A stretch of DNA of 64,000 nucleotides from Oscillospiraceae bacterium (GTDB lineage Bacteria; Bacillota; Clostridia; Oscillospirales; Oscillospiraceae): the NCBI GenBank assembly GCA_015067975.1, contig SVLK01000006.1, positions 1 to 64,000 of the forward strand, written 5' to 3'. The notes under the pieces were generated by a model that worked only from the letters and a program-made list of their open reading frames with translations, was not told the DNA's origin and made no database searches. The position numbers and the translations under genes are program-made. Below are positions 13,022 through 62,975 of the stretch, in pieces (the stretch's first letter is position 1; every line of letters begins with the position of its first letter).

Positions 13022-13058
13022 AAAAAGTGAGTATTCCAACAGGAATACTCACTTTTTT
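13022..13058. terminator. Bidirectional terminator
   Basis: An inverted repeat with the arm AAAAAGTGAGTATTCC and a four-base loop is flanked by runs of A on the left and T on the right. It serves both the PAP2-GDPD gene (plus) and the TauE pair (minus), whose coding ends it touches. Confidence 0.9.
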
Positions 13059-13420
13059 TGTCCCTTTTTCTGCCGCAGCATCCCAATCCCTGTGATGAGT
13101 AAAAAAAGACCGAACGGCTTGCGTAAAAAAGCGGTGTCCACCGCCGTAGCCAACCATGCAGCCGCCGCTGCTGACAGAACGCCTGCGGGCACAGCATGGC
13201 GAATGACCTGTTTGTCCAAAAGGTTGTTCTTTCGGTGGAACAGCAGCGCTGCACCGGCGGTGGGCAGAAAATAGAGGAGATTGATCCCCTGTGCAGTCAC
13301 TTGATCAACCCCGAGAAACAGCGTCATAATCAATAGAAGCAGCGTGCCGCCACCCACGCCCCAGGCGGACAGGATCCCCGTTCCGAATCCTACCAATACA
13401 GGGATTACCCACTGCATCAT
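13049..13420 (-). CDS. Half-size TauE/SafE permease, second subunit
   Basis: A 123-residue, four-helix membrane protein homologous to one half of the TauE/SafE (sulfite/organosulfonate exporter) family. The family glycine signature WGVGGGTLLLL is at residues 20-30 and the QVTAQGINLLYFLPTAGAALL segment follows. The start is chosen at 13420, where the ATG overlaps the stop of the upstream half by four bases (ATGA); a much longer in-frame extension overlaps that gene and is not credible. TauE proteins normally have two such halves in one chain of about 250 residues, so this gene and its neighbour appear to be a split permease. The substrate (sulfite, sulfoacetate or other anion) is unknown. Confidence 0.8.
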   Translation of the reverse strand: MMQWVIPVLVGFGTGILSAWGVGGGTLLLLIMTLFLGVDQVTAQGINLLYFLPTAGAALLFHRKNNLLDKQVIRHAVPAGVLSAAAAAWLATAVDTAFLRKPFGLFLLITGIGMLRQKKGQKK

Positions 13421-13770
13421 AAGAGATACCTCACACCGCCGTACAGTAAAAAGGCGGCAAAGATGCGCCGCAGCCACACCACGCTGACGCGCCCCATCAG
13501 CCGTCCTCCGACCCATCCGCCGGCCAACCCGCCCAGGAGATAGGGCAGTGCTGCAGCAAGATCCACTCCTCCACGCAGCCAGTAGATGGCGACGGATAAT
13601 ACGCAAAAGGGGAAGATCACCGCCACACAGGTGGCGAAGGCTTTCTTTTCCTCTATGCCGCACCATCGTGTCAGTAAGGGGACCAGCACCATGCCGCCGC
13701 CACCGCCGAATAAGCCGTTGACCAACCCACCCAATGCGCCGCTGATGCGGCGTTTGTTGTCCGACGTCAT
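13417..13770 (-). CDS. Half-size TauE/SafE permease, first subunit
   Basis: A 117-residue, four-helix protein with the other TauE/SafE glycine signature (GLFGGGGGMVLVPLL, residues 18-32) and the AFATCVAVIFP segment. It begins with a good AGGAGGTGG ribosome binding site and is translationally coupled to the second half by a four-base overlap. The pair is the size of one full TauE protein and probably functions as a heterodimer or as paired dual-topology subunits. The ancestor of full-length TauE is thought to have arisen by duplication of such a unit; whether this pair is ancestral or a secondary split cannot be told here. Confidence 0.8.
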   Translation of the reverse strand: MTSDNKRRISGALGGLVNGLFGGGGGMVLVPLLTRWCGIEEKKAFATCVAVIFPFCVLSVAIYWLRGGVDLAAALPYLLGGLAGGWVGGRLMGRVSVVWLRRIFAAFLLYGGVRYLL

Positions 13771-29815: not shown

Positions 29816-30973
29816 TCAGATATTCTGCAGATCCTTCCACTTCTTAGGCGGGCGGGGTTCATAGGGCAGGGATGCCAGATACGCTTCGTTCATTTCAATG
29901 CCGAGACCTGCGCCTTCCGGCAGGGTCAGGAAGCCGTCTACGACCTTGAGCTGATTGCGGCACATCCGATCGCCGATTTCCACATGCCAGGGGAAGGTTT
30001 CAATAGCGGAGAGGTTGGGCATTACACAGGCGGCATGCACTGTGGCATTCAGCGCTACGGTGGAACTGTTGCAGTTATGGGGGCCGACCTTGATGTAATT
30101 GGCCTCGGCGATGGCAGCAATATCCACCATCTCGCCAATACCGCCCACCACACTGACGTCCGGATTGATATAATCCACGCAGTTGCGCTTACATACTTCG
30201 TTGAACCAACGCTTGCCGAACATTGCCTCGCCTGCCACCAGGGGAAGGGTGGTGCCGGCTTTCAATTGCGCCAGTACATCCAGATTATCCGGACCGATAG
30301 GCTCTTCGTACCACGTAATACCGTACTTTTCGATGCGGCGGGCAACATCCAGCGCCTGCCGGGCATCGGGAATACGCCAGACATCGATCATGATTTCGTA
30401 GTCATTGCCCAGCCCTTCTCGGAACTTGGCGATACGCTCTACAATCTGATCCTCGTTTTCATCGTTGGCGAAGGGGTAGAGCTTGAAGGCGCGATAGCCG
30501 TTGGCGCGGGCCAGTTCCAGCGCCATCTCCACCTCCTGCTGCGGTGTTTTCACACCGTCAGGGCCGATATTGGCATAGGCCTTCAGCTTTTTATGTACCG
30601 GTCCGCCCAACAGGGTGTACACCGGCACGTCCAGCTTTTTGCCCAGAATATCCCACATGGCAATCTCAATGCCGCTGGCGGCGCAGTACAGGTCGATGCC
30701 GGCCCGGCGTTCACCAAACAGGTTATACACCCAGTTGCGGAAATTTTTGACCCGCGTAGGATCTGCACCGATCAGGTAGCTTTTCATTTCCTCCACATGC
30801 ATGGCGGTGCCGCGTTCCCGGTCTGCCAGCGTATAACATTCGCCCCAACCGTCGATTCCTTCATCGGTTTCGATTTTTACCAAAAGAAACTGCTTTGTGC
30901 CGCTCCAATGATAGGTGACTTCGCTGGCTTGAATGGTGGGCACGATGTAAGTTTTAATATCGCGAATCTTCAT
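29816..30973 (-). CDS. Mandelate racemase/muconate lactonizing (enolase superfamily) enzyme
   Basis: A 385-residue enolase-superfamily enzyme, probably an acid-sugar or hydroxy-acid dehydratase or epimerase. The three Mg2+ ligands are D197 (MIDVW), E223 (YEEP) and E249 (AGEA). The mandelate-racemase His-Asp dyad is present as D272 and H299 (VGPHN), with the same 27-residue spacing as in mandelate racemase. The opposite-face base motif KxK is changed to K164-L-Y166, so the second Lys is missing. It is divergent from the sigma-54 activator gene and shares its intergenic region, which holds a symmetrical operator-like palindrome. The substrate is unknown. Confidence 0.88.
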   Translation of the reverse strand: MKIRDIKTYIVPTIQASEVTYHWSGTKQFLLVKIETDEGIDGWGECYTLADRERGTAMHVEEMKSYLIGADPTRVKNFRNWVYNLFGERRAGIDLYCAASGIEIAMWDILGKKLDVPVYTLLGGPVHKKLKAYANIGPDGVKTPQQEVEMALELARANGYRAFKLYPFANDENEDQIVERIAKFREGLGNDYEIMIDVWRIPDARQALDVARRIEKYGITWYEEPIGPDNLDVLAQLKAGTTLPLVAGEAMFGKRWFNEVCKRNCVDYINPDVSVVGGIGEMVDIAAIAEANYIKVGPHNCNSSTVALNATVHAACVMPNLSAIETFPWHVEIGDRMCRNQLKVVDGFLTLPEGAGLGIEMNEAYLASLPYEPRPPKKWKDLQNI

Positions 30974-31173: not shown

Positions 31174-31202
31174 TTGACAATTTCCGAAACGGTGGCTACA
31201 AT
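31174..31202 (+). promoter_or_regulatory. Sigma-A promoter of the sigma-54 activator gene
   Basis: A consensus TTGACA (31174-31179) and TACAAT (31197-31202) are spaced by 17 bases, about 50 bases before the start codon. The activator is thus made by housekeeping polymerase. Confidence 0.8.
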
Positions 31203-31254: not shown

Positions 31255-32637
31255 ATGATGAAGAGCAGCGAAGCGTTAAAGTGGCTGAACGAAAACTTCA
31301 ACTATGTGGACTCGGTGACCATCATTGACGCTAACGGCACCATCATCGCCAAACAGCGGTTTAATCCGCGGTATACGGACGAGGAAAATGAAACCGATAA
31401 CCGTTGGGCGCTGGGAAAGAACCTGTTAGAGGTTTTTCCCAGCCAGGATCCGCAGACCAGCGAACTTCTGACTGCGCTCAAGCGTGATGGTGTGATTCAT
31501 CGAAAGCAGGATGTGGCCTACAACCATCAGGGCAAGAAGACGGTGACCAACCACCTGACATTCCCCATTGTCTGCCGCGGACGTTTTGTGGGCTCTGTGC
31601 AGGTTTCCCGTGATGTGACCAACATGGACACCAGCCGTGTCCGGAGTTCGGATGAAATGCATCCGGGTGGCAATGCGAAATTTACATTGGATGACATTGT
31701 GGGCAAATCGCCTGAGATGCGGCACATCAAGTCCGTGATCACCCGAATTGCTGACAGTGAGTCCTCGGTGTTGGTTTGCGGAGATACCGGCACCGGTAAA
31801 GAGCTGGTGGTTTCTGCCATCCACAATGCCAGCTATCGCAAAAATAAAAACTTTATTCCCATCAACTGTGCCGCACTGCCCGAGAGCATTCTGGAGGGAT
31901 TGCTGTTTGGCTCCCGTAAGGGTGCGTTTACCGGTGCGGAGAATATGAAGGGATTGTTTGAAGAATGCGACGGCGGTACGATCTATCTGGACGAGATCAA
32001 CTCCATGCCGCTGAATTTGCAGGCAAAGTTGCTGCGCGTGCTGCAGGATAAGGCGGTGTTGCCGTTGGGCGAGACTAAGCCGCGACCGGTCGATGTGCGG
32101 ATCATTGCTTCGGTCAACAAGCCGGTGAAGGTGCTGATGCAGAACAACGAAATGCGCGAGGATCTGCTCTACCGTCTTAATGCCATTAACATCCAGCTGC
32201 CGTCGTTGCGCAGCCGACAAGGAGATATCCGGCTGCTGGCAGAGCATTTTGTCAACAAGTACAGCCGCCTGCTGGGCAAGCACACAGACGGCATCAGCAG
32301 CGAAGCACTGGTTCTGCTGCAGGCATACCATTGGCCGGGAAATGTGCGGGAACTGGAGCACACCATTGAATCGGCCATTAATCTGACAGAAGACTTCCGC
32401 CCCTTGCAGGTGGATGATTTGCCATCGTATCTGATCATCCGGGAAGCGGAGCATCCGGATTCCGTTTACGGGGAACTGGAGCCGATTTCTCTGCTGGATG
32501 CGGTTTCGGCCTATGAAAAGCGGCTGATCAGCGACATGCTGGTGCGCACCGGCGGTAATGTGGCCAAAGCGGCCAGACTGCTGGGCGTGCCGCGTACCAC
32601 GCTGTACTCTAAAATGGATGCGCTGGGGCTGCGATAG
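31255..32637 (+). CDS. Sigma-54-dependent transcriptional activator with PAS-like sensor
   Basis: A 460-residue bacterial enhancer-binding protein. The N-terminal 125 residues form a PAS-like sensor (VTIIDANGTIIAKQRF at the start, FPIVCRGRFVGSVQVSRDVT at the end). The AAA+ core has Walker A GDTGTGKE (176-183), the sigma-54-contacting loop GAFTGA (223-228) and Walker B GTIYLDE (241-247). The Fis-type HTH (NVAKAARLLGVPRTTLYSKM) ends the protein. The domain plan matches RocR/BkdR-type activators that sense a small metabolite. The start at 31255 has GGGAGGAG upstream. It is divergent from the enolase-superfamily gene and precedes a sigma-54 promoter by about 245 bases, so it most likely activates the nhaC-lyase operon. 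Confidence 0.94.
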   Translation: MMKSSEALKWLNENFNYVDSVTIIDANGTIIAKQRFNPRYTDEENETDNRWALGKNLLEVFPSQDPQTSELLTALKRDGVIHRKQDVAYNHQGKKTVTNHLTFPIVCRGRFVGSVQVSRDVTNMDTSRVRSSDEMHPGGNAKFTLDDIVGKSPEMRHIKSVITRIADSESSVLVCGDTGTGKELVVSAIHNASYRKNKNFIPINCAALPESILEGLLFGSRKGAFTGAENMKGLFEECDGGTIYLDEINSMPLNLQAKLLRVLQDKAVLPLGETKPRPVDVRIIASVNKPVKVLMQNNEMREDLLYRLNAINIQLPSLRSRQGDIRLLAEHFVNKYSRLLGKHTDGISSEALVLLQAYHWPGNVRELEHTIESAINLTEDFRPLQVDDLPSYLIIREAEHPDSVYGELEPISLLDAVSAYEKRLISDMLVRTGGNVAKAARLLGVPRTTLYSKMDALGLR

Positions 32638-32638
32638 G

Positions 32639-32666
32639 TGTCGAAATAAAGACGCATATGTCGAAA
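32639..32666 (+). promoter_or_regulatory. Tandem TGTCGAAA repeats, candidate upstream activator sites
   Basis: TGTCGAAA occurs at 32639-32646 and again at 32659-32666, exactly 20 bases (two helical turns) apart. They lie about 220-245 bases upstream of the sigma-54 promoter, a usual enhancer distance. The core is shared with the palindrome at 31048-31083. Confidence 0.55.
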
Positions 32667-32735
32667 AAGCAACATTTAAGAAGAAAAGTTTCGCTGCAGG
32701 AGCAAAAAATGAGCCTCAGCGAGAACAGCAATCAA

Positions 32736-32777
32736 CAGAGGGGTGTCGGTCATACGACGCCTCTCTGACTTTTTTTG
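32736..32777 (+). terminator. Terminator after the sigma-54 activator gene
   Basis: A stem built on AGAGGGGTGTCG and CGACGCCTCTCT is followed by GACTTTTTTT. It ends the activator transcript before the sigma-54 promoter, so the operon depends on that promoter. Confidence 0.8.
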
Positions 32778-32881
32778 GAAAAAATTGTGAAATTTCCGGA
32801 GAAGAGCTTTTGAATGTGGCCAAAATTTGTGCGAAATGGTTAAAATACACCAAAAAAGTTTGTGGAAAGAGACATGCGGAT

Positions 32882-32898
32882 TTGGCACGGAAATTGCT
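32882..32898 (+). promoter_or_regulatory. Sigma-54 (-24/-12) promoter
   Basis: TTGGCACGGAAATTGCT matches the sigma-54 consensus TTGGCACG-N4-TTGCW at every defined position, with TGGCAC at 32883-32888, five spacer bases and TTGCT at 32894-32898. The start would be near 32910, giving a leader of about 100 bases to nhaC. The 372-base gap between activator and nhaC holds only the repeats, the terminator, this promoter and the leader. Confidence 0.92.
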
Positions 32899-33008
32899 AT
32901 TAAAGAGGGCGAGTCCTTTTATAGGCGAACCGCGGCTGCGGGGAAAGGCAGCTGCACCCTCCGGTTAGCCGAAGGAGGACATCAAAATAAGAAAAAAAGG
33001 AGAAAATC

Positions 33009-34517
33009 ATGGATAACTTTGGTTTACTGTCCCTGATCCCGCCCATCCTGGCGGTCGTTCTGGCATTTGCCACCAAGAACGTCGTTCTGTCCCTTTTTAT
33101 CGCCCTGTTCAGCGGTACTTTAATCGTTGCCATGGGCAATCCCTGGACTGCACTGCAGATCACTTTCAGCGACTATCTGTTCGTTGATATGACCAGCGGC
33201 AGCAATGCCCAGACCATCGTGCTGATGGCCGTCATCGGCGGTTTCGTGGCTCTGGTGGAAAAGTCCGGCGGCGCCCGCGCCTTTGCACAGGCCATCTCTA
33301 ACAAGCTGACCAAACCTGTCAGCGCACAGATCGCCTGCTGGCTGGGCGGCCTGGCCATCTACTTCTCCGACTCCGGCAACAGCCTGATCCTGGGCCCCAT
33401 CTTCCGCCCTGTGTTCGATAAGCTGAGAGTCTCCCGCGCCAAGCTGTCCTACATTTTGGACTCCACTTCCTCTCCCGTCTGCATCCTGATCCCCATCACC
33501 GGCTGGGGCGTGTATATCATGAATATCATCGCCACTGAGTTCGGCAACCTGGGCATCGAGGCTACCGACGCTGCTACCTTCCTGCAGTGCATTCCCTATC
33601 AGTTCTACGCCATCCTGGCTCTGGTGCTGATCCCTGTGCTGGCTTTGAGCAAGATGGACTTCGGCCCCATGGCCAAGGCTGAAATGCGCGCCAGACTGGA
33701 AGGCCCCTCCGCTTCCGAACTGGCCAATGACGGCGAGATCCTGGTCAGCGAAGAGAAGAAGGTCTCCATGTGGAACATGCTGCTGCCCCTGATCGTTCTG
33801 TTCGTCGTGATCTTCGCCATGTTCATCGGCTGGGGCTTCCCCACCCAGAACATCGCCGGCTCCAAGATCCGTATCGCCCTGACCTCCGGCTATCTGCTGG
33901 CTGCCATCACCTGCGGTGCAATGATCGTCAAGCAGAAGCTGATGACCTTTGACGAGGCCTTCAACGTCTTCATCGGCGGCATCCAGAAGATGGCTTCCAT
34001 CCTGGTAGTGATCGTTGTCGCTTGGGGCGTGGGCAGCGTTTGCGGCACCCTGGGCACCTCCAACTTCATCGTCGGTGCAGTGGACGGCGTGCTGAGCCCC
34101 GCTCTGATGCCCGCTCTGATCTGCCTGATCGGTACGATTATCAGCTTCGCTATCGGTAGCTCCTGGGGCACCATGGCCATCCTGCTGCCCATCGGTATCG
34201 CTATGGCTCACAGCTTCGAGCTGTCCCAGCCTCTGATGATCGCTGCTGTGCTGAGCGGCGCCCTGTTCGGTGACCACTGCTCCCCCATCTCCGACACCAC
34301 CATCATGTCCTCCATGGCTGCCGGTGCCAACCACATCGACCACGTGAAGACCCAGCTGCCTTATGCCGCTGTGGCTGCAGTTGCTTCTTTCCTGGGCTAC
34401 CTGATCGTTGGCTTTACCGGCATGAACGCCTTTGTGGGCGTGGCCGTGGCCATCGTGATCATGCTGGCTATCTACTTTGTGGCTTGCAAGCTCTTTGGCG
34501 CTAAGAAGGCTGCCTGA
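33009..34517 (+). CDS. NhaC-family Na+/H+ antiporter or substrate antiporter
   Basis: A 502-residue polytopic protein of the NhaC family (about 12 helices). Family features include IYFSDSGNSLILGPIFRPV, the ILDSTSSPVCILIPITGWG segment and the GDHCSPISDTTIMSSMAAG motif near residue 420. NhaC relatives exchange Na+ for H+ or for organic anions such as malate/lactate. As the first gene of a sigma-54 catabolic operon it may import the operon substrate. The codon use is strongly C/G-ending and markedly more biased than in the neighbouring lyase gene, suggesting high expression. An AAGGAG ribosome binding site precedes the ATG. Confidence 0.9.
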   Translation: MDNFGLLSLIPPILAVVLAFATKNVVLSLFIALFSGTLIVAMGNPWTALQITFSDYLFVDMTSGSNAQTIVLMAVIGGFVALVEKSGGARAFAQAISNKLTKPVSAQIACWLGGLAIYFSDSGNSLILGPIFRPVFDKLRVSRAKLSYILDSTSSPVCILIPITGWGVYIMNIIATEFGNLGIEATDAATFLQCIPYQFYAILALVLIPVLALSKMDFGPMAKAEMRARLEGPSASELANDGEILVSEEKKVSMWNMLLPLIVLFVVIFAMFIGWGFPTQNIAGSKIRIALTSGYLLAAITCGAMIVKQKLMTFDEAFNVFIGGIQKMASILVVIVVAWGVGSVCGTLGTSNFIVGAVDGVLSPALMPALICLIGTIISFAIGSSWGTMAILLPIGIAMAHSFELSQPLMIAAVLSGALFGDHCSPISDTTIMSSMAAGANHIDHVKTQLPYAAVAAVASFLGYLIVGFTGMNAFVGVAVAIVIMLAIYFVACKLFGAKKAA

Positions 34518-34604
34518 TTTACGGCTATCGGCTGCCGCGTCAGAATGACATGCGAAACTCTCCTTCTGATGCGGCAGCTACTCTTTTCACTGCAAGGAGT
34601 GCCT

Positions 34605-36110
34605 ATGAACAAAGAAACGTATTACCAGCCCTATGCTGGACGGGATATCCGTATCCTGGACCAGCATGCGAAAAACACCATTGCTGAGGATTATCTCACC
34701 TTTCCCTATCAAATCCTGGATCATCTGGCCCATGTGGTGATGCTGCAGGAGCAGGAGATCATCCCCCGCCGTGATGCGACTGTGATTCTCAAGGCGCTGC
34801 TGCGCCTGAAAAAAGAGGGCCCTGATATCGTGCCCCATAAACCCGGCCTGACGGACCTGTACTCCAATGTGGAGGAGTGGCTCATTGATCAGGTGGGTAT
34901 TGAAGTGGGAGGTAAGCTGCATACCGGCCGCTCCCGCAACGATATGAACCCCGCCATCGAGCGTATGTATACCCGACAGGCGATTTTAAACGTCTGCGAG
35001 GCGATCAGCCTTTTGATGCAGACGCTGTTGGTACAGGCGGAGGTACATAAGAATACCATTATTCCTGCCTATACCCACCATTCTCAGCAGGCGCAGCCTG
35101 TAACGCTGGGACACTTTTACATGAGTGCCTATGAGAATTTCGCCCGCGATCTGGAGCGCCTGATGGCATCCTACGAGCGTGTGAACCTCAGCCCCATGGG
35201 CGGTGCTGCTGTGGCTACCACCAGCTTCCCCATCAGCCGTGAGCGGGTGTGTGAGCTGTTGGGCTTTGACCATTTGCTGGTCAACTCCATGGACGCATGC
35301 AGTACGCTGGACTATGCCTATGAGCCTGCCTGCGCCATGGCCATCTTTATCAACAACGTGGGCCGTGTGGCCGAGAGCCTGCTGCTGTGGAACCTCAACG
35401 AGGTGGGCATCAGCCGTCTGGCACTGCCGTACTGCTCTTACAGCACCATTATGCCGCAGAAACGTAATCCTGTGGCACTGGAAACGCTGCGTATGGCCGG
35501 TGAATGGACGTACGGTACGCTGAGTACTATGTTCAACACCATGAAGGCCTATCCTCCCGGAAACGGACGTGAGCCCGGTTATGTGGTGGGTCTGTTCTTT
35601 GAAATCGCCCAGCGCATCGAGGACAGCGCCTATCTGCTGGAAGGCATTGTGCGCAATCTGGAAGTAAATGCAGAGCGCGCTTTGCAGGTGACCCGTGATG
35701 GATTCAGTACCGTAACTGATTTGGCCGACGAAATGGTCAAGAGCATGGGCCTGTCCTTCTCTGCCGCGAAGAAGATCGTGGGACGTCTGGTGGTAACAGC
35801 CCAGGCGGAGGGGATTGCCTGCACGGAAATCAACACGGCACTGGTGCGCCGTGCCGCCAAGGAAGCAATGAATATTGATCTGGACATGCCTCAGGAGTTG
35901 ATCACCAACGCGTTGGACCCTGTGGAAAATGTCAACCGCCGCACCATTATCGGCGGACCCAGCCCTGTACGCGTGCAGCAGATGGTCGATGCCGGCCAGC
36001 AGGAGCTGGAAGAATTCTGCCGCCGCCGCCAGCGGGAATGTGACCGCCTTGCTGAGGTGGATGCAAAGCTGATGGCGCTGGCCGAAGCCATTGCCGCCGA
36101 AGCGGAATAA
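34605..36110 (+). CDS. Argininosuccinate lyase/EDDS lyase-like C-N lyase
   Basis: A 501-residue member of the aspartase/fumarase superfamily, argininosuccinate lyase branch. Fumarate-site residues are seen in TGRSRND (107-113), THHS (157-160) and the mobile loop YSTIMPQKRNP (279-289), where S280 aligns with the catalytic serine and K286 and N288 are kept. True argininosuccinate lyases read GSSxMPQKKNP; the Y-S-T and K-R variants and the absence of argG argue for another substrate. EDDS and iminodisuccinate lyases are close relatives that split N-substituted aspartates to fumarate and an amine. The start at 34605 has AAGGAG upstream. It lies in the sigma-54 operon before the MmgE/PrpD gene. 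The substrate assignment is inferred. Confidence 0.85.
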   Translation: MNKETYYQPYAGRDIRILDQHAKNTIAEDYLTFPYQILDHLAHVVMLQEQEIIPRRDATVILKALLRLKKEGPDIVPHKPGLTDLYSNVEEWLIDQVGIEVGGKLHTGRSRNDMNPAIERMYTRQAILNVCEAISLLMQTLLVQAEVHKNTIIPAYTHHSQQAQPVTLGHFYMSAYENFARDLERLMASYERVNLSPMGGAAVATTSFPISRERVCELLGFDHLLVNSMDACSTLDYAYEPACAMAIFINNVGRVAESLLLWNLNEVGISRLALPYCSYSTIMPQKRNPVALETLRMAGEWTYGTLSTMFNTMKAYPPGNGREPGYVVGLFFEIAQRIEDSAYLLEGIVRNLEVNAERALQVTRDGFSTVTDLADEMVKSMGLSFSAAKKIVGRLVVTAQAEGIACTEINTALVRRAAKEAMNIDLDMPQELITNALDPVENVNRRTIIGGPSPVRVQQMVDAGQQELEEFCRRRQRECDRLAEVDAKLMALAEAIAAEAE

Positions 36111-36124
36111 CGACAAACCACAAA

Positions 36125-36201
36125 GGCAGGAGGCGCATCATCTGATGCCGGGCTAAGCCCCTCTGCCTTACCGCCCCGCCGCCCAACGGGCGGCGGGGCG
36201 G
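36125..36201 (+). repeat. Composite GC-rich stem-loops between lyase and MmgE/PrpD genes
   Basis: A perfect 14-base hairpin (36171-36184 with 36188-36201, loop AAC) follows a nested structure in which GGCAG pairs with CTGCC and GCATCA with TGATGC. There is no T tract, so full termination is unlikely. Such structures commonly protect or process operon mRNA segments. Confidence 0.7.
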
Positions 36202-36241
36202 CATCGCATTTACCAAACAAAAGCTCAGGAGGAAATTGATT

Positions 36242-37594
36242 ATGACTTTAAGCGAAATCTTTGCTGCATTTATCTGCGGCAATAGCCATATGACCGAAAA
36301 TGATTTGTATCTGGCCAAGCGCTCTATTGTGGACACCGTAGGCGCTACCATCGCCGGCAGCCGTACCGAAGTGGTGCGCCAGACGCTGCCTGTATATTCT
36401 GCGCCGGGCTGTGCCACCGTTATCGGTGTGGGCAAGGGCTATGCACCGCAGGCCGCTGCCTTTATCAACGGTGTCAGCGGCCATGAACTGGAACTGGACG
36501 ATACCTGTTCTTCCAATCTGGGCCATCCTACGGTGGCTGTGCTGCCGGCTTTGCTGGCAGTGGGTGAGGAACTGGGTTCTTCCGGTGAACAGATTTTGAA
36601 GAGCTTCTTGTATGCCACGGAGATTGAATGCAAAGTGGGCCGCATCTGCGCCGCCGAACTCCACCGTCGCGGCTGGCATGCCAGCAGCATTACCGGTGTT
36701 TTGGGTGCTGCTGCCGGCTGCGGTTATCTGTACGGACAGGACGAGACTACGATGCGCCACACGCTGGGTATTGCGGCCTCGATGGCTTCCGGTGTCCGGG
36801 AGAATTTTGGCACTACTACCAAATCTGTCCACATCGGCAAGACGGCCGGTGACGGCGTCATTGCTGCGCAGCTGGCCAACCACGGTGTGACATCTTCGCC
36901 CCGCGCACTGGAAGGACACGAGGGCTATCTGCGGGAGTATGCAGGCTTCGACGGCATGACATTTGACGAGGATTTTGCCGCTACACTGGGCAATCCTTTC
37001 GACATTGCGGCGCCCGGCTTTGCACTGAAGAAACATCCGTCCTGCTCCAGTACCCACCGCGCCATTGACGGCCTCATTGACCTGATTGAAGAAAACCACC
37101 TGACGGCAGAGGATATTGCCCGCATTGACGTGGGCTTGAGCCAGCCTGCGCTGCGCGAGCTGGTGACGCCCTATCCCAAGGATGGCGAAGAAGCCAAGTT
37201 CAGCATCGGCTTCCAGGTGGCACTGCATCTGACCGGAAAAGACAACATGCCTTACAACTACACCCCGGAGGTCATTTTCCTGCCGGAAATCCAGCGTATT
37301 ATTAACGCGACGTTCCTGTATAACGAACCATCTTCCGACAATCTGCCCTCTGAAATGGGCGTAGGCCCGGCCCATGTAGCCATTACCAAACCCGATGGAA
37401 CCGTGCTGAAAAAGGTCCGTATCTTCCCCGAAGGCCATCTGACTCATCCCATTCCTGATGAAGGAATCTACGATAAGTATAAGAAGTGCACCACGGGCAT
37501 TATCCCTGATGCACAGGCAGATGAACTGTATCAGCGCATCATGCATCTGGAGAAGGAAGCGGATATCCGGGATATTCTCGCCCTGTGCATCTGA
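36242..37594 (+). CDS. MmgE/PrpD family protein
   Basis: A 450-residue MmgE/PrpD protein (family of 2-methylcitrate dehydratase, cis-aconitate decarboxylase and iminodisuccinate epimerase). The helical domain contains GHELELDDTC and the GHPTVAVLPALLA segment, and the HRRGWHASSITGVLGAAA block is the usual family signature; HPSCSSTHRAIDG is in the C-terminal part. No prpB, prpC or acn partner is nearby, which argues against methylcitrate metabolism. The lyase gene immediately upstream makes an epimerase for an N-substituted aspartate an attractive reading, by analogy with iminodisuccinate epimerase. The start at 36242 has CAGGAGG nine bases upstream. Confidence 0.85.
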   Translation: MTLSEIFAAFICGNSHMTENDLYLAKRSIVDTVGATIAGSRTEVVRQTLPVYSAPGCATVIGVGKGYAPQAAAFINGVSGHELELDDTCSSNLGHPTVAVLPALLAVGEELGSSGEQILKSFLYATEIECKVGRICAAELHRRGWHASSITGVLGAAAGCGYLYGQDETTMRHTLGIAASMASGVRENFGTTTKSVHIGKTAGDGVIAAQLANHGVTSSPRALEGHEGYLREYAGFDGMTFDEDFAATLGNPFDIAAPGFALKKHPSCSSTHRAIDGLIDLIEENHLTAEDIARIDVGLSQPALRELVTPYPKDGEEAKFSIGFQVALHLTGKDNMPYNYTPEVIFLPEIQRIINATFLYNEPSSDNLPSEMGVGPAHVAITKPDGTVLKKVRIFPEGHLTHPIPDEGIYDKYKKCTTGIIPDAQADELYQRIMHLEKEADIRDILALCI

Positions 37595-37609
37595 AAAAGG
37601 AGAATGACA

Positions 37610-38761
37610 ATGGAACTGAGAGAACAGGCATTGAAAATGCATAAAGAAAACCGCGGCAAGCTGGCAGTGGAATCAAAAGTGGCGATTTCCTGCGCAGCAG
37701 AGTTGTCGCTGGCCTATACCCCCGGTGTTGCAGAACCCTGCAAGGAGATCGCAAAAAACACGGAGGATGTGTATCAATACACTTCGAAAGGGAATATGGT
37801 GGCGGTGGTTACCGATGGTACGGCTGTACTGGGTCTGGGCGACATCGGACCTGAGGCGGCGCTGCCTGTGATGGAAGGCAAGGCCTGCCTGTTCAAGACT
37901 TTCGGTGGTGTGGATGCATTTCCAATTTGTCTGAACACCAAAGATCCGGATGAAATTGTCAAAACCGTCCAGCTGATCGCTCCCGGTTTTGGCGGCATCA
38001 ATCTGGAGGATATTTCCGCACCTCGCTGCTTTGAGATTGAGCGTCGCCTGATTGAAACGCTGGATATTCCCGTGTTTCACGACGATCAGCACGGTACTGC
38101 GGTGGTGGTATTGGCCGCCCTCATCAATGCGGCCAAATGCATGGGGAAAACGCTGGAAGAGATCAAGACCGTTATTTCCGGTGCGGGTGCGGCCGGCATC
38201 TCCATCTGCACGCTGCTGATGAAGGCCGGTGTCCGTGACGTCATTTTGTGTGACCGCGGCGGTGCAATTTATGAGGGCCGCGAAGGACTCAACAGCGCCA
38301 AGGCAGAGATCGCCCGCGTTACTAACCGCCGTATGGTAAAGGGCTCCCTCGCCGATGCGTTGGTGGACAGCGATCTGCTCATTGGTGTCTCCGGACCCGG
38401 CATTGTCGATGCTGATATGATTCGCAGCATGGGCGAAAAGCCGCTGGTATTTGCCCTGTCCAATCCGACCCCCGAGATCATGCCGGATGAGGCGAAGGAC
38501 GCCGGTGCTTACATTGTGGCTACCGGACGCAGCGATTTTCCTAACCAAATCAACAATCTGCTGGTATTCCCCGGTATTTTCAAAGGAGCGCTGGAAGCAC
38601 GTGCCCGCCACATCACCGAAGAGATGATGATTGCTGCCGCCTACGCCATCGCGTCCTGCGTCAGCGAAGAGCAGAGAGGGCCGGAGTGCATTATCCCCAG
38701 TGTATTTGACCGCACCATTGCCGGTGTGGTAGCAGAAGCCGTCAAAAAATACGTGGATTAA
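37610..38761 (+). CDS. NAD(P)-dependent malic enzyme
   Basis: A 383-residue small-form malic enzyme that oxidatively decarboxylates malate to pyruvate and CO2. The active-site Tyr is in LAYTPGVAEPC (about residue 36), the catalytic Lys in GKACLFKTFGG (about 91), metal-binding acidic residues in INLEDISAPRC and FHDDQHGT (about 133-160), and the Rossmann motif is ISGAGAAGISI (about 186-196). The second ATG (37610) is chosen because AAGGAG is seven bases upstream; the first is too close. It is 15 bases after the MmgE/PrpD gene. In this operon it would convert fumarate-derived malate to pyruvate. Confidence 0.95.
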   Translation: MELREQALKMHKENRGKLAVESKVAISCAAELSLAYTPGVAEPCKEIAKNTEDVYQYTSKGNMVAVVTDGTAVLGLGDIGPEAALPVMEGKACLFKTFGGVDAFPICLNTKDPDEIVKTVQLIAPGFGGINLEDISAPRCFEIERRLIETLDIPVFHDDQHGTAVVVLAALINAAKCMGKTLEEIKTVISGAGAAGISICTLLMKAGVRDVILCDRGGAIYEGREGLNSAKAEIARVTNRRMVKGSLADALVDSDLLIGVSGPGIVDADMIRSMGEKPLVFALSNPTPEIMPDEAKDAGAYIVATGRSDFPNQINNLLVFPGIFKGALEARARHITEEMMIAAAYAIASCVSEEQRGPECIIPSVFDRTIAGVVAEAVKKYVD

Positions 38762-38772
38762 GGAAGAACGAT

Positions 38773-40155
38773 ATGGATCAACGTATCGGCACACTGATTG
38801 CTGCGCCGGATTTTTACAAAAAGGTAGTCAAAATTGCGCTGCCCATCTGTTTGCAGCAGCTGCTCAACCATGGAGCGAGCTTCATCGACACATTGATGGT
38901 CAGCCATATCGGTTATGTCAGCGCCATTACGATTGCATCTGAACTGAACAACCTGATGTTTCTGTTTGGATTCGGCATCAACGCAGCGGTCAGCGTCTAT
39001 GCCGCGCAGTTTTACGGAATTCGCGACTGGAAAAACATGAAACGGGCCTTTGGACTGCTCATTAGCCTGAATATGATCGCCGCTACGCTGTTTTTTATCA
39101 TGGCACAGCTTGGTAATACACGGTTGCTGTCTTTTTACAGCAAAGATGCTGTGTTGGTGGCGCAGGCATGGGAGTATCTTGCTGTTGGCAGTATTGCGTT
39201 CTTTTTCACTTCACTGACCAATGCGTTTGCGTTCATATATCGATGCATCCAAAAGACGATGGTCCCTATGCTGATCGGCTTTGGTGTCAACATTACCAAT
39301 GCTGTACTGAACTATGGGATGATTTTTGGAAAACTGGGCTTTCCTGCGATGGGGGCACGCGGTGCAGCTACCGCAACGGTGATCGCCACGGGACTGGGAC
39401 TTGCGGCCCATATAATCTATGCCGTGGTTACCCGACAGCCATTTTGGGGTAAAGTGCGGGAAATGGTGGATTGGCCGGCCCATTTTTTAATTCCCATGCT
39501 GCGGCGTATGCTGCCTGTGATGGGAAATGAAATGATCTTTGGCCTTGGTGATACAATGTATATTAAGGCATACGGTCTGCTGGGAAGTGCGGCGTTGGAG
39601 TGCTATAAGGTGGGATATTCCATCAGCATGATCCCCTATGTAGTCACTCTGGGCATCGGCAATGCCTGTTCCATGATCGTAGGAGAAAGTCTGGGACGCA
39701 AGGCTTTGCAGGAGGCGAAGAATACCATCCGCTATCTGCTGCCGCTCTCCGGTTTGTTTGCGGTGCTGCTCTCCGGCATTTTGATACTGGTTTCCCGACC
39801 TGCTGTGGGGCTGTTTGAGTTGTCCTCGGAATCGCTGCGGGAAGGAACGGTGCTGATGACGCGGCTGTTTGCCCTGCGCATTGCAACACGACTGTTCAAC
39901 ATCATTTTCCTCTGTGCGATCCGGGCCGGCGGTGATTCCAAGTTCTTGCTGTTCCTTGATTGCGGAATTGTCTGGTTGGTAGGCCTGCCGATTGCCTACG
40001 GTGCGATTTTGCTGCTGGGCATTACCTCCTTGCCGCTGGTGTATGTGCTGGTACAGATTGAGCAAATTGTCCGGCTGATGCTTGGCATCTGGCGCTATCG
40101 GTCCGGAACATGGCTGCGTAATCTGACGGATGAAGTGGAAAAAAAGAAAGAATAA
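38773..40155 (+). CDS. MATE-family efflux transporter
   Basis: A 460-residue multidrug and toxin extrusion protein with about twelve helices in two repeats (ALPICLQQLLNHGASFIDTLMV at the first, MLRRMLPVMGNEMIFGLGDTMYI at the second). It starts 11 bases after the malic enzyme gene, so it is likely the last gene of the sigma-54 operon, with a strong terminator after it. Export of a by-product or of a toxic substrate analogue is possible; many operons, however, end with unrelated MATE genes. Confidence 0.9.
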   Translation: MDQRIGTLIAAPDFYKKVVKIALPICLQQLLNHGASFIDTLMVSHIGYVSAITIASELNNLMFLFGFGINAAVSVYAAQFYGIRDWKNMKRAFGLLISLNMIAATLFFIMAQLGNTRLLSFYSKDAVLVAQAWEYLAVGSIAFFFTSLTNAFAFIYRCIQKTMVPMLIGFGVNITNAVLNYGMIFGKLGFPAMGARGAATATVIATGLGLAAHIIYAVVTRQPFWGKVREMVDWPAHFLIPMLRRMLPVMGNEMIFGLGDTMYIKAYGLLGSAALECYKVGYSISMIPYVVTLGIGNACSMIVGESLGRKALQEAKNTIRYLLPLSGLFAVLLSGILILVSRPAVGLFELSSESLREGTVLMTRLFALRIATRLFNIIFLCAIRAGGDSKFLLFLDCGIVWLVGLPIAYGAILLLGITSLPLVYVLVQIEQIVRLMLGIWRYRSGTWLRNLTDEVEKKKE

Positions 40156-40167
40156 GCATAAAACACG

Positions 40168-40205
40168 AAAAGATCACACGTTGGTAAAGCAACGTGTGAT
40201 CTTTT
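40168..40205 (+). terminator. Terminator of the sigma-54 operon
   Basis: A perfect 16-base inverted repeat (AAAAGATCACACGTTG) around a six-base loop ends in TTTT. Confidence 0.9.
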
Positions 40206-58083: not shown

Positions 58084-59382
58084 ATGAAGAAAATCATTGC
58101 TCTGCTGCTGGCCCTGATGATGATCGCTGGCTTGGTTGCTTGCGGCGCCAAGGACGACGACAAGGGCGGCGATGACGCAACCGTTAAGGTCGGCGCTCTG
58201 TATCCTTTCTCTGGCGGTAGTGCTGCTGCTGGTCCTGAGGCTAAGTTCCTGATCGACATGGTTGTCAAGAAGGTCAACGAAGAGGGCGGTCTGGATGGTC
58301 TGAACGGCGCCAAGATCGAAGTCATCTACGGTGATACTCAGGCTGACGGTCAGGTTGCTCTGACTGAGTTCGAGCGCCTGGTCAACGTGGAAGGCGTTAC
58401 CTCTCTGCTGGGCGGCTACAACACCGCTGTGGCCAACACCCTTTCTCAGTATGTTATCGCTGCTCAGGTCCCCATGCTGATGACCTCTGCCGCTGGTAAC
58501 GACGCTTTCTCTGTGGACAACCGTTATGTGTACCACGCCAACTCCTGCTCCGCTAACGACCTGCCTACTTCCAAGAAGATCACTGAGTACCAGAACAAGC
58601 TGTGCGGCAATCCCCGTACTTCTCTGGTTATCTATGACTCCGCCGACTACGGCGCACAGGTGTGGCAGGATAAGCAGACTGTTGCCGCTGAGACCGGCAA
58701 TACCGTTATTGGTATTCCCGTTGTTGCCGGCGCTGCCGACTACTCCGCTGAGATCGCCAAGATCAAGGAATATGAAGGCGTTGCTGCTTACAGTGAACCC
58801 ACTCTGATCATGGACGACGCTATCCGCATGATGAAGCAGATGTATGACAAGGGCGTTGCTATGCCCGTGTTTGCTGCCGGCGGCGGCTATCTGCAGGGCG
58901 ACTTCATCCAGCAGTGCGGCAAGGCTGCTGAGTATGTGTTCTCTACTGCTTGGTTCTTCGATGACATGAAGTACGCTGCTTACGATGTTGAGTGGGCCTG
59001 CGAAGTCAGCGATGCTTTCGCCGCTGAGTTCGGCTATCCCTTCAACGAGAACGCTTCCTGCGTGTGGACCGGTATCTGGTCCCTGATCGATGCTCTGGAG
59101 CGCACCACTGCTGACGAGCCCGAGGCTATCGTTACTGCTCTGGAAGCCACCGACATCAAGGGCGAGCATCCCGCTCTGCTGTTCACTCTGGCTGACCACG
59201 TCAAGTATGAGGACGGCCTGATTGAGGGTACCGATGTTGTTGTTTACAACCAGAACCGTTATGACAACTCCGTGGCTTGGGGCTGCATCATGGACGGCGC
59301 ATGGCGCGTTGTGTGGCCTGAGAACTATGTCAATCCTGACTATCCTCTGCCCTGGCCCATCCCCGCAGTTGCTGATCGCTAA
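58084..59382 (+). CDS. Liv-type ABC transporter substrate-binding lipoprotein
   Basis: A 432-residue periplasmic-binding-protein-like lipoprotein of the branched-chain amino acid (type I, Peripla_BP_6) class. The lipobox is GLVAC at about residues 16-20. The mature N-terminus has KVGALYPFSGGSAAAGPEAK, then the LDGLNGAKIEVIYGDTQADG stretch, typical of LivJ-like proteins; these bind amino acids but many relatives bind aromatic or aliphatic acids or amides. Codon use is strongly biased, as expected for an abundant binding protein. It is the first gene of the Liv operon, followed by a stable hairpin. The neighbouring CoA-transferase suggests a carboxylic acid ligand. Confidence 0.9.
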   Translation: MKKIIALLLALMMIAGLVACGAKDDDKGGDDATVKVGALYPFSGGSAAAGPEAKFLIDMVVKKVNEEGGLDGLNGAKIEVIYGDTQADGQVALTEFERLVNVEGVTSLLGGYNTAVANTLSQYVIAAQVPMLMTSAAGNDAFSVDNRYVYHANSCSANDLPTSKKITEYQNKLCGNPRTSLVIYDSADYGAQVWQDKQTVAAETGNTVIGIPVVAGAADYSAEIAKIKEYEGVAAYSEPTLIMDDAIRMMKQMYDKGVAMPVFAAGGGYLQGDFIQQCGKAAEYVFSTAWFFDDMKYAAYDVEWACEVSDAFAAEFGYPFNENASCVWTGIWSLIDALERTTADEPEAIVTALEATDIKGEHPALLFTLADHVKYEDGLIEGTDVVVYNQNRYDNSVAWGCIMDGAWRVVWPENYVNPDYPLPWPIPAVADR

Positions 59383-59435
59383 ACCATTACATTTTTAACA
59401 GTTAAGTAATTTGCCTGAATACGGCATCTTAATTG

Positions 59436-59465
59436 GTGGCGGGATGTCTTCGGGCATCCCGCCAC
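59436..59465 (+). repeat. GC-rich stem-loop after the Liv binding-protein gene
   Basis: GTGGCGGGATG (59436-59446) pairs perfectly with CATCCCGCCAC (59455-59465) around an eight-base loop. No real T tract follows (TTTGAG). It parallels the hairpin after oppA and probably sets the binding-protein to downstream gene ratio. Confidence 0.75.
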
Positions 59466-59487
59466 TTTGAGAGAGGAAAGGTATCTT

Positions 59488-60672
59488 ATGGATGAAAAAA
59501 GATTGTTGGAAGGTGTCCGCGTAGTGGATTTTTCCACCTATATTGCGGCTCCTTTGTGTGGCGCGCTGCTGGCAGATCTGGGCGCGGAAGTAATTAAGGT
59601 GGAATCTCCTTCCGGTGATGCTTGCAGATGGTTCAATCATCCGGAAAGAAGAGGAAACGTGCGCTTTGATTCCTGCAATACGGGAAAGAAAAGCGTGTGC
59701 ATCAATCTGCAGACCGCTGAAGGAGTAGCAGCACTGAAAAAACTGGCCGCATCCGCTGATGTGTTTTTGACCAATACGCGTATGAAAAGTCTGGCTAAGC
59801 GCGGATTGGACCATGAGAGTCTGTGCAAAGAGAATCCCCGTTTGATTTATGCGTGGATCTCCGGCTACGGAGAAAAAGGTCCGGATGCAAATCTCCCGGC
59901 GTACGACTCTTCTGCCTATTGGGCCAAGTCCGGCCTGCTGATTGATACCATGACTTATACGGAAACATCCTATCCGACGTTCAATCCCATAGCCGGTGGC
60001 GACCGGGTAACAGCGTTGGGTATGTTCAGTTTGATCATGGCGGCATTGCTGCGCAGAGAGCAGACCGGTAAAGGCGACTATGTGACGACATCTCTGTTCC
60101 ATATGGGCCTGTTCCAGAATGCGCTGGACATTGTAAGCCAGCAGTATGGCTTCCCCTTCCCCTTCCCCAGAGGAGAGGCAAGCCCTGAATGTTCTGCATT
60201 CAAGTGCGCAGATGGCCGATGGATTCTCATTGCCATCATGGACTATCCCAGACAGGGGCGGGCACTTTGGAATGCGTTTGACAACGATGAGATGTTTGAT
60301 AAACCTGAGTACGTTTTTCCTGACGGCTGGAATTCTCACCGTCCGGAAATTACAAAGATTATAGACTCCATTATGATCAAGAGAACTTCTGCGGAGTGGA
60401 TCGCAGAATTTGCTAAGAGAGATATCGCCTGCTGCATTTTGGAGGATGCAAAGAGTGTCCAGAGCAGTGAGCAGGCATGGGCTAACGATTACTTTGAAAA
60501 GTATACTGCTGAGACCGGCAAGGAGTACATCATCCCCCGTTCCATTATTAATATGCAGTCTCAGCCGCTTCCTTATATTCACGACGTTCCCTTCGAAATT
60601 GGAGAGAACACTACGGAGATCCTGTCTGCGCTGGGATTCAGCCCTGAAGAAATTGAGAGGGCAAGCAAATGA
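59488..60672 (+). CDS. Class III (CaiB/BaiF) CoA-transferase
   Basis: A 394-residue family III CoA-transferase that moves CoA between carboxylic acids (formyl/oxalate, carnitine/crotonobetaine, bile acid and others). The N-terminal VRVVDFSTYIAAPLCGALLADLGAEVIKVE-type region (read as short motifs VVDFSTYIAAP and LGAEVIKVE) is characteristic; the catalytic Asp is probably D140 in AYDSSAYWAKSG. The position in a Liv operon means the imported acid is probably activated here. The start at 59488 has GAGGAAAGG upstream. The stop overlaps the VOC gene by four bases. The specific acid is unknown. Confidence 0.92.
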   Translation: MDEKRLLEGVRVVDFSTYIAAPLCGALLADLGAEVIKVESPSGDACRWFNHPERRGNVRFDSCNTGKKSVCINLQTAEGVAALKKLAASADVFLTNTRMKSLAKRGLDHESLCKENPRLIYAWISGYGEKGPDANLPAYDSSAYWAKSGLLIDTMTYTETSYPTFNPIAGGDRVTALGMFSLIMAALLRREQTGKGDYVTTSLFHMGLFQNALDIVSQQYGFPFPFPRGEASPECSAFKCADGRWILIAIMDYPRQGRALWNAFDNDEMFDKPEYVFPDGWNSHRPEITKIIDSIMIKRTSAEWIAEFAKRDIACCILEDAKSVQSSEQAWANDYFEKYTAETGKEYIIPRSIINMQSQPLPYIHDVPFEIGENTTEILSALGFSPEEIERASK

Positions 60673-61055
60673 TTACAGGAATTGCGCATATTGGGATCTG
60701 CGTAAACCATATCGAAGCTGCCGTTCGGTATTTTGAAGAAAATTTTGATGCGACAGTGCAAAACAGGGTTGAATATCCCGAAATGGGACAGATTTCAACG
60801 TATTTGACATTGAAGGACGGCCAGTGTCTGGAAGTGATGTCTCCTATGGGAGATACTGGCGTTGTTGCAGAGTTCCTTGCCAAAAAGGGTGAGGGATTTC
60901 ACCACTTGTCGCTGAAAAGCGATACGTGGGAAAGCACCATTGCAGAATATGAAGAAAAGGGATACCGCATTGTCAGTAAGGGAGATGGGTATGCATTCCT
61001 TCATCCCAAGTCTGCTATGGGGATTCTGTATGAAATTTGTCGCGAAGAAAAATAA
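60669..61055 (+). CDS. VOC-superfamily protein, methylmalonyl-CoA epimerase-like
   Basis: A 128-residue vicinal-oxygen-chelate protein with two beta-alpha-beta-beta-beta modules. The metal ligands appear to be H7 (IAHIGI), E55 (CLEVMSP), H79 (FHHLSL) and E122 (LYEI); methylmalonyl-CoA epimerases have His, Gln, His, Glu at these places, so E55 replaces the usual Gln. The four-base overlap with the CoA-transferase gene implies action on its CoA product, such as epimerisation next to a thioester. Glyoxalase or dioxygenase relatives cannot be excluded. Confidence 0.8.
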   Translation: MITGIAHIGICVNHIEAAVRYFEENFDATVQNRVEYPEMGQISTYLTLKDGQCLEVMSPMGDTGVVAEFLAKKGEGFHHLSLKSDTWESTIAEYEEKGYRIVSKGDGYAFLHPKSAMGILYEICREEK

Positions 61056-61075
61056 AAACAGGAGGTAAGTAACTT

Positions 61076-61954
61076 ATGAACAGCTTGATCCAGCTGTTGA
61101 TAGACGGTACGCTCACCGGCGGTGTTTACGCCTGTGTTGCCATCGGTCTGTCGCTTTCCTTCGGCATTATGAGAATTTTTAACTGGGCCCAGGGTGATAC
61201 CTACATGATGGCCATGTTTATTCTCTATGTGCTGATCGGAAAAACCAGCATGCATCCCTACCTGGCTATTGCCATTATGGTTCCGCTGATGTTCCTGTAT
61301 GGCTCTGCTTTGCAGAAATATGTGCTGAACCCGCTGGTCATGCGCACCAAGGAACGCGAGTCTTTGGACGTAATGCTGACCACAGCCGGTGTTTCTTACG
61401 TCATTTACAACTTGGCAGTGTTTATTTTCAGTTCCAATGCCAAGTCTGTGGACACCCCCATCAGCGGTAAGATGTTCAATTTTGGTAGCATTTCCATTTC
61501 GCAGGGCAAGGTATTTGCCTTCATTTCCATTTTGCTGGTGACGATTGGCTTGGAAATGCTGCTGCGCAAGACGGAAATCGGCCGTGCTTTGCGTGCCACC
61601 TCTCAGGATAAAGAAACGGCGCAGCTGATGGGCATGAACAACGTGAAGTTGTACAACCTGGCTAACGGTTTGAACCATGCCTGTATCGGCTTGGCCGCCT
61701 GCGTGATGATTCCTATGTACACCGTTTCTCCCGCCTCCGGCCAGACCTTCGGCTTCAAGAGCCTGATCGTCGTGGTGCTGGGCGGTAAGGGCTCTGTGCC
61801 CGGCGCTCTGCTGGGCGGCATCATTCTGGGCCTTGTTGAGGTGCTGGGTGCTTATTACTTCAATAACGTCATTGCCCAGATGATGATTTTTGGCCTGTTC
61901 GCCTTGATTTTGTTCCTGAAACCCAATGGTCTGCTGTCGAAGGAGAAATCATGA
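61076..61954 (+). CDS. livH: Liv-type ABC transporter permease H
   Basis: A 292-residue permease of the branched-chain amino acid/amide (HAAT) family with about eight helices. N-terminal LTGGVYACVAIGLSLSFGIM, the NWAQGDTYMMAMF segment and the GKGSVPGALLGGIILGLVE block near the C-terminus are typical of LivH. A GGAGG ribosome binding site is upstream, and the stop overlaps livM by four bases. The substrate is set by the binding protein at 58084. Confidence 0.93.
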   Translation: MNSLIQLLIDGTLTGGVYACVAIGLSLSFGIMRIFNWAQGDTYMMAMFILYVLIGKTSMHPYLAIAIMVPLMFLYGSALQKYVLNPLVMRTKERESLDVMLTTAGVSYVIYNLAVFIFSSNAKSVDTPISGKMFNFGSISISQGKVFAFISILLVTIGLEMLLRKTEIGRALRATSQDKETAQLMGMNNVKLYNLANGLNHACIGLAACVMIPMYTVSPASGQTFGFKSLIVVVLGGKGSVPGALLGGIILGLVEVLGAYYFNNVIAQMMIFGLFALILFLKPNGLLSKEKS

Positions 61955-62973: not shown

Positions 62974-62975
62974 AA

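Follow-up and report, generated by a model that had tools for sequence, protein, structure and literature searches.

What might a gut bacterium degrade with an operon that sets a lyase of the argininosuccinate/ethylenediaminedisuccinate (EDDS) lyase superfamily beside an MmgE/PrpD protein and a malic enzyme? This gene set lies in the window, a 64-kb stretch of Oscillospiraceae DNA that was analysed as a whole and belongs to a 1.87-Mb assembly of 49 contigs, 84% complete. Here nhaC, the lyase gene, the MmgE/PrpD gene, the malic enzyme gene and a MATE gene follow one another on the forward strand, with the gene of a sigma-54-dependent activator upstream (Table 1). An earlier reading of the bare letters, hereafter the original prediction, had described these five genes; the open reading frame list agrees with its strand and coordinates, and Pfam and NCBIfam back the five family names, while the activator gene falls outside its range (32639..40205). 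The catabolic unit is real, and both it and its site of the sigma-54 type are conserved. It is probably, though with considerable room for doubt, a substrate-inducible operon that degrades a succinate substituted at C2, with an N-substituted aspartate as the likeliest candidate.

Is the set inherited as a unit? Among 250 genomes of the family, at least 183 contain a match to the lyase at an E-value of 1e-30 or better. Four of the 250 reach at least 65% identity, and the others among the matches listed lie at 30-37%. The same four genomes, and only these, carry the MmgE/PrpD protein at 56% identity or more; 29 of the 250 matched in all, the others at no more than 31%. At an E-value of 1e-100, the lyase is found in 5 of 400 family genomes, and in 3 of 10 of its own genus among the matches listed; the fifth of these five, G1115, is probably the same genome as that of locus L008. 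Of 391 genomes of the class searched at 1e-66, 53 matched, and none besides the own genome belongs to the lyase clade described below (31-36% identity). Two others matched among 398 genomes of the phylum searched at 1e-80 (39-40% identity), neither of them in the clade. These last three limits are strict and leave weaker relatives unlisted. The named relatives are all Oscillospiraceae and include Flavonifractor plautii ATCC 29863 (L008). Regulator, nhaC, lyase and MmgE/PrpD genes are adjacent and in this order in eight of the nine distinct genomes found, and the pairing of lyase and MmgE/PrpD genes proposed at the outset is thus a conserved one. Trees of these four genes, built from the eight complete clusters, share an identical unrooted topology; the four genes were therefore inherited or moved as a unit.

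The same loci speak to regulation. A perfect -24/-12 promoter had been reported ahead of nhaC, and the site is indeed present, as the sole perfect match within the window. Taken alone it is weak, because near-matches are as frequent as chance in the window: with at most one mismatch there are five matches against 4.0 expected, and five were reached in 36 of 100 shuffles. It is the conservation and not the single site that carries the evidence for sigma-54, since such a site lies 5′ of nhaC in all eight loci checked (the window, L004, L005, L007, L008, L039, L040 and L041), matching 10-11 of 11 letters and standing 73-128 bases ahead of the nhaC start. The own genome encodes RpoN (L092; 399.6 bits against a cut-off of 277.35). 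With the promoter site, the activator gene and rpoN all in place, sigma-54-dependent control of the operon is predicted. The top NCBIfam match of the activator is PrdR (344.6 bits, below the cut-off of 795), and its ATG start is preceded by GGGAGG, as read from the sequence. Palindromes such as GACGAAAATTCGTC or GTCGGTCATACGAC occur between the activator gene and nhaC in the window and in all seven relatives scanned; they are candidate activator binding sites and may serve as such.

What kind of bond does the lyase break? In a phmmer search of the PDB, EDDS lyase comes first with 253.6 and 251.9 bits, ahead of the best argininosuccinate lyase (ArgH), that of T. thermophilus, at 186.8; the window lyase is 35% identical to EDDS lyase and 31-32% identical to three ArgH proteins. 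The PDB labels its entries 6g3d and 6rx8 argininosuccinate lyase, whereas the available portion of PMC12363623 identifies 6G3H, which has the same sequence, as EDDS lyase. In a tree of 55 rows, the window lyase and eight relatives form a 100/100 clade that stands outside the 100/100 clade of 26 ArgH rows. The latter comprise 21 ArgH-like fetched loci together with L045, L046, L110, E. coli and T. thermophilus; L050 was omitted, its lyase being split over two frames, and other fetched loci were unused. Six residues, numbered as in EDDS lyase, are retained in all nine members of the clade: R112, N113, T158, S280, K286 and N288, of which T158, S280 and K286 are taken by us to act in catalysis or succinyl binding in EDDS-type lyases. 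All 26 ArgH rows have D290 and Y320, in whose place the nine clade lyases all have Val and Asn (both residues are also absent from the 18 other uncharacterised rows), and Q159 is His, as in ArgH. R112, N113, Q159, N288, D290 and Y320 lie near the substrate in EDDS lyase, as reported in the same portion of PMC12363623. On our reading, the succinyl side would be kept in the window lyase and the leaving-group side would be new. Fumarate release is its well supported predicted activity.

These same observations bear on whether the protein is a diverged ArgH that breaks down argininosuccinate or makes arginine. It exceeds the cut-off of the NCBI argH model (349.6 against 279.5 bits), which counts with the contrary observations gathered below, and the own genome supplies no second ArgH from the Lyase_1 family, in which its only further protein lies near rpoN and is PurB by eye. 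The cut-off is not discriminating, because EDDS lyase passes it too (342.2 bits). A true ArgH scores 659.5 bits, nearly twice as many as the window lyase; it comes from G078, a genome that carries a clade lyase in addition to this separate ArgH. Moreover, no argG scored over the cut-off in the own genome at its 84% completeness (best match, 21.5 against 268.2 bits). The ArgH role was discarded on the tree, on residues 290 and 320 and on this absence of argG, and even in diverged form is highly improbable. Neither of the two outcomes that the original prediction had named as refuting it was seen: the lyase does not group with ArgH, and its pairing with the MmgE/PrpD gene is conserved.

One remote EDDS-type lyase (L088, 8521-13451) lies beside a gene of the serine-dehydratase-alpha family and an amidohydrolase gene, as assigned by Pfam, and another (L090, 4537-9466) has neighbours that look alike by eye. 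Others lie near asparaginase-family genes (L042, 7748-11913, by Pfam; L044, 6858-11045, and L086, 7317-13322, by eye), and L044 holds two lyase genes in tandem.

The MmgE/PrpD protein is presumed from homology to be an epimerase. Its best solved relative is iminodisuccinate (IDS) epimerase (207.6 bits), followed by B. subtilis IRG1 (152.7 bits). In a tree of 27 rows (25 different, two being duplicated; matches of 380 residues or fewer were skipped), the eight cluster members form a 100/100 clade, and the approximately unbiased test gives a joint clade with IDS epimerase a value (p-AU) of 0.31 and one with IRG1 a value of 0.15. H99, the proposed first base in IDS epimerase, is conserved in all eight members and in all other rows compared, and is therefore not specific; Y145, the proposed second base, is His in all eight. 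Both assignments come from the available portion of PMC7347537, where H99 and Y145 are proposed as the two bases. A His/His pair could perform a two-base inversion as well. The closest solved relative is thus the one that the original prediction had guessed, and an epimerase activity is presumptive in view of the loss of Y145 and the tree placement. Might the protein instead dehydrate or decarboxylate another acid, in an operon that serves another pathway? The family does include PrpD and cis-aconitate decarboxylase, and both the unsettled placement relative to IDS epimerase and IRG1 and the loss of Y145 are compatible with such an activity. IDS epimerase is nevertheless the best solved match by 55 bits, and the gene is co-inherited with that of a lyase whose neighbours include fumarase genes. 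The sole NCBIfam match, the PrpD model, reaches 48.3 bits against a cut-off of 950, and a PrpD or 2-methylcitrate role was rejected on this ground. Another acid is a very unlikely substrate, and epimerisation is preferred.

Where would the fumarate go? The window operon contains a malic enzyme gene and no fumarase gene. Fumarase genes are present in or near the cluster in six of the eight relatives. In L004 and L005 the order malic-fumA-fumB-MATE is found downstream of the MmgE/PrpD gene (L005 fumB at 13043-13558), in L006 fumA-fumB-MATE follows the lyase gene, and in L007 fumC and a malic enzyme gene lie downstream, behind a MATE-like gene on the opposite strand. L040 has malic-fumA-fumB upstream of the cluster, and in L041 fumA-fumB-MATE is close by, beyond rpoN; the L008 stretch ends at a contig edge. 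The FumA of L040 scores 393.7 bits with the fumarate hydratase model, whose cut-off is 276, and Pfam and NCBIfam confirm the families of the L040 and L007 copies. Sites of their own, with 10 of 11 letters of the -24/-12 motif, precede malic-fumA-fumB in L040 and fumA-fumB in L041. Across 16 upstream regions scanned, five had a site with at least 10 letters, one had a site with nine (the enolase-superfamily gene of L007) and ten had none; these ten include the regions ahead of fumA in the own genome, of fumC in L007 and of the genes in L006. The own genome carries fumA-fumB-MATE standing alone on contig C38 (L091). Conversion of the released fumarate into malate and then pyruvate is well supported, and in this part the fumarase genes of the relatives strengthen the originally proposed route; they do not extend to an N-linked substrate, to epimerisation or to the MATE protein. 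The MATE gene stands beside fumarase genes in L004, L005, L006 and L041, and once more elsewhere in the own genome, and is perhaps a hitch-hiker. Its role as a functional part of the operon was dropped in view of the isolated fumA-fumB-MATE group of L091.

Taken in order, the pathway would begin with the activator, which would sense the substrate or a product and, together with sigma-54, open the -24/-12 promoter. The NhaC-type carrier, judged by position and family, would import the substrate. As homology suggests, the MmgE/PrpD protein would use two-base proton transfer to invert C2 of the succinyl moiety in the wrong stereoisomer, with His95 and His141 of the protein encoded from 36242 (97 and 143 in an alternative numbering) as the likely bases. 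The lyase would then eliminate the amine and leave fumarate by means of the Ser base of the superfamily and the succinyl-binding residues, a step suggested by its residues and context. Family and context likewise point to the last two steps, in which a fumarase, encoded elsewhere in the own genome and within the cluster in relatives, would make malate, and the malic enzyme would make pyruvate and NAD(P)H.

A nitrogen-linked leaving group is not the only one that would suit these enzymes. Spontaneous succination is expected to yield both stereoisomers, so that an epimerase paired with a stereospecific lyase would also be useful if the substrate were fumarate bound to a thiol, as in S-(2-succino)cysteine or peptides of it, from which the lyase would release fumarate and cysteine. 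The fumarate-handling context fits this substrate equally. No cysteine or sulfide gene was, however, recognised in the nine clusters, and no yxe-type gene (the companions of 2SL) is among their named genes, although no search was aimed at yxe-type genes. A thiol adduct is quite unlikely, and an N-substituted aspartate remains the preferred substrate. A broader formulation, which we consider doubtful, would make the operon an inducible de-succination pathway of gut Oscillospiraceae, in which a new lyase subfamily and a His/His MmgE-type epimerase consume both stereoisomers of those N- or S-linked fumarate adducts of amino acids that reach the gut, and an enzyme of the proline-racemase family adds a further sigma-54-controlled step in some species. 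The gene for the latter precedes the regulator in three relatives (Table 1). Its L040 copy scores 278 bits with Pfam and stays below the cut-off of all NCBIfam models, and the family motifs read MCGH and DRSPGGTGTSA; the second motif presumably has Cys or Thr as a rule, and here the second catalytic Cys would be Gly. The start taken for the L039 gene is possibly wrong, because the -24/-12 site lies only 23 bases ahead of it. Proline-racemase and enolase families include racemases and epimerases; such families fit a substituted aspartate as substrate and prove nothing.

Several observations weigh against an N-substituted aspartate operon with an EDDS-like lyase and an IDS-type epimerase. The original prediction had placed the lyase in the argininosuccinate/EDDS branch. 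EDDS lyase is its best solved relative, and yet membership of the EDDS branch does not follow: a joint clade is not rejected (p-AU 0.504) but is absent from the best tree, where the window clade falls on the side of ArgH at a support of 53/81 and where long branches were flagged by the program. S281 is Thr in all nine clade lyases and Ser in every other row printed. To these are added the replacement of Y145 in the epimerase candidate and the argH score. The exceptional genome among the nine, that of L006 (3937-9271), has an alpha/beta-hydrolase gene, the lyase gene, fumA, fumB and a MATE gene, with no regulator, nhaC or MmgE/PrpD gene beside them. In this metagenome-assembled genome, whose completeness is not given, there was no MmgE match, and the NhaC relatives are remote (34-36%). 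Over the 19.5 kb of L039, no gene for fumarase or malic enzyme is seen. No MmgE/PrpD gene is annotated beside the remote EDDS-type lyases of five plasmid stretches (L048-L052), where the PLSDB annotation is incomplete. A query with the window MmgE/PrpD protein found no match near such lyases in L042-L046, L050, L053, L054, L085-L090, L107 and L108. The plasmid MmgE/PrpD region L055 in turn contains no annotated lyase of the EDDS type. The pair is thus seen only in the Oscillospiraceae clade, and the link to the Agrobacterium system described next is therefore weaker.

How does the operon compare with known systems? In Agrobacterium tumefaciens BY6, an IDS epimerase and a stereoselective C-N lyase are reported to degrade all IDS stereoisomers (Cokesa et al. 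2004, cited in the available portion of PMC7347537). The window set resembles this system in joining an MmgE/PrpD protein, with IDS epimerase as its best solved relative, to a presumed C-N lyase. It differs in its host family, in its arrangement as one operon with a sigma-54 activator, an NhaC carrier and a malic enzyme (and fumarase genes in relatives), and in having His in place of Y145; the two lyases are likened here without the sequence of the BY6 enzyme. From EDDS lyase of Chelativorans sp. BNC1, with which it shares 35% identity and the six residues named above, the window lyase is set apart by its own 100/100 clade and by the exchange of Q159, D290, Y320 and S281 for His, Val, Asn and Thr. 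With ArgH it shares the superfamily, its signature and a match to the argH model, at roughly half the score that a true ArgH attains. It differs in falling outside the ArgH clade, in lacking D290 and Y320 and in having no argG partner over the cut-off in its own genome. A survey of sigma-54 regulons in 57 Clostridiales distinguishes 39 activator groups, among them OrdR (ord...nhaC) and PrdR (available portion of PMC6615313). These activators drive amino-acid catabolic operons, one of them with nhaC, and are in this respect alike; Table 1 of that survey, covering the 39 groups, lists no operon of the window make-up by gene name, and its main text has no mention of argininosuccinate, MmgE, fumarate or lyase. 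In keeping with the original prediction, no description of such a gene set in gut Clostridia was found in searches of the open-licence literature. What is new is the sigma-54-controlled operon form of a known epimerase and C-N lyase logic.

Substituted aspartates are known mainly as chelators, fungal metabolites and products of fumarate damage. If the preferred reading is true, gut bacteria, including the type-culture strain Flavonifractor plautii ATCC 29863, would have a regulated route for them. The analysis also draws attention to a subfamily of lyases to which automatic annotation would give the name argininosuccinate lyase, and places beside it a likely stereochemical partner enzyme, which makes the substrate question directly testable.

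Table 1. Features of the window and, where a locus is named, of relatives
Feature	Position	Strand	Basis or remark
Enolase-superfamily (mandelate-racemase type) gene, divergent from activator gene	29816..30973	-	Pfam/NCBIfam
Sigma-70-like site, ahead of activator gene	31174-31202		11 of 12 letters; motif scan
Sigma-54-dependent activator	31255..32637	+	AAA+ domain, Fis-type helix-turn-helix, sigma-54 interaction domain (Pfam/NCBIfam)
Hairpin with T-run, separating activator gene from operon	32736-32767		Terminator scan
Palindrome GTCGGTCATACGAC, candidate activator binding site	32745..32758		Within hairpin 32736-32767
-24/-12 (sigma-54) promoter TGGCACGGAAATTGCT	32883..32898	+	TGGCAC-N5-TTGCT; match in 8/8 loci
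NhaC-family transporter	33009..34517	+	Pfam Na_H_antiporter, 205.7 bits; DcuC, 33 bits against cut-off 23.1
Lyase of the argininosuccinate/EDDS-lyase superfamily, own subfamily; presumed fumarate release	34605..36110	+
GC-rich hairpin without T-run, between lyase and MmgE/PrpD genes	36171..36201	+	Read from sequence
MmgE/PrpD protein, presumed substrate epimerase	36242..37594	+	Family match, solved relatives, tree, residues
Malic enzyme (malate to pyruvate)	37604..38761	+	Pfam/NCBIfam
MATE transporter	38773..40155	+	Pfam/NCBIfam; beside fumarase genes elsewhere
16-pair hairpin 3′ of MATE gene	40168..40205		Scan: terminator-like on the - strand
Proline-racemase-family gene ahead of regulator	L039 5673-6713; L040 5063-6037; L041 13802-14776		-24/-12 site in each

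Among the minor elements, the hairpin between the lyase and MmgE/PrpD genes possibly tunes their relative expression. A terminator had been placed at the end of the operon; a hairpin is present there, yet it is terminator-like on the reverse strand, and on the forward strand its stem closes in TTTT with no T-run after it, so that a terminator at this point is plausible but uncertain. The scan lists 10 terminator-like sites in the stretch where chance would give 9.6, and 6 sigma-70-like sites where it would give 7.1.

The enolase-superfamily gene adjoins a regulator gene in the window and in L007. It occurs in these two of nine stretches, and its membership of the system is uncertain. In L007 (14949-17378), an enolase 93% identical to that of the window is accompanied by a truncated second regulator, which matches residues 58-320 of the window open reading frame at 93.5%, the full regulator of L007 matching at 51%. 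The enolase and regulator pair may move by itself. At the far end of the window (58084-63716), a set of binding-protein and ABC transporter genes is seen by eye together with a CoA-transferase-like gene.

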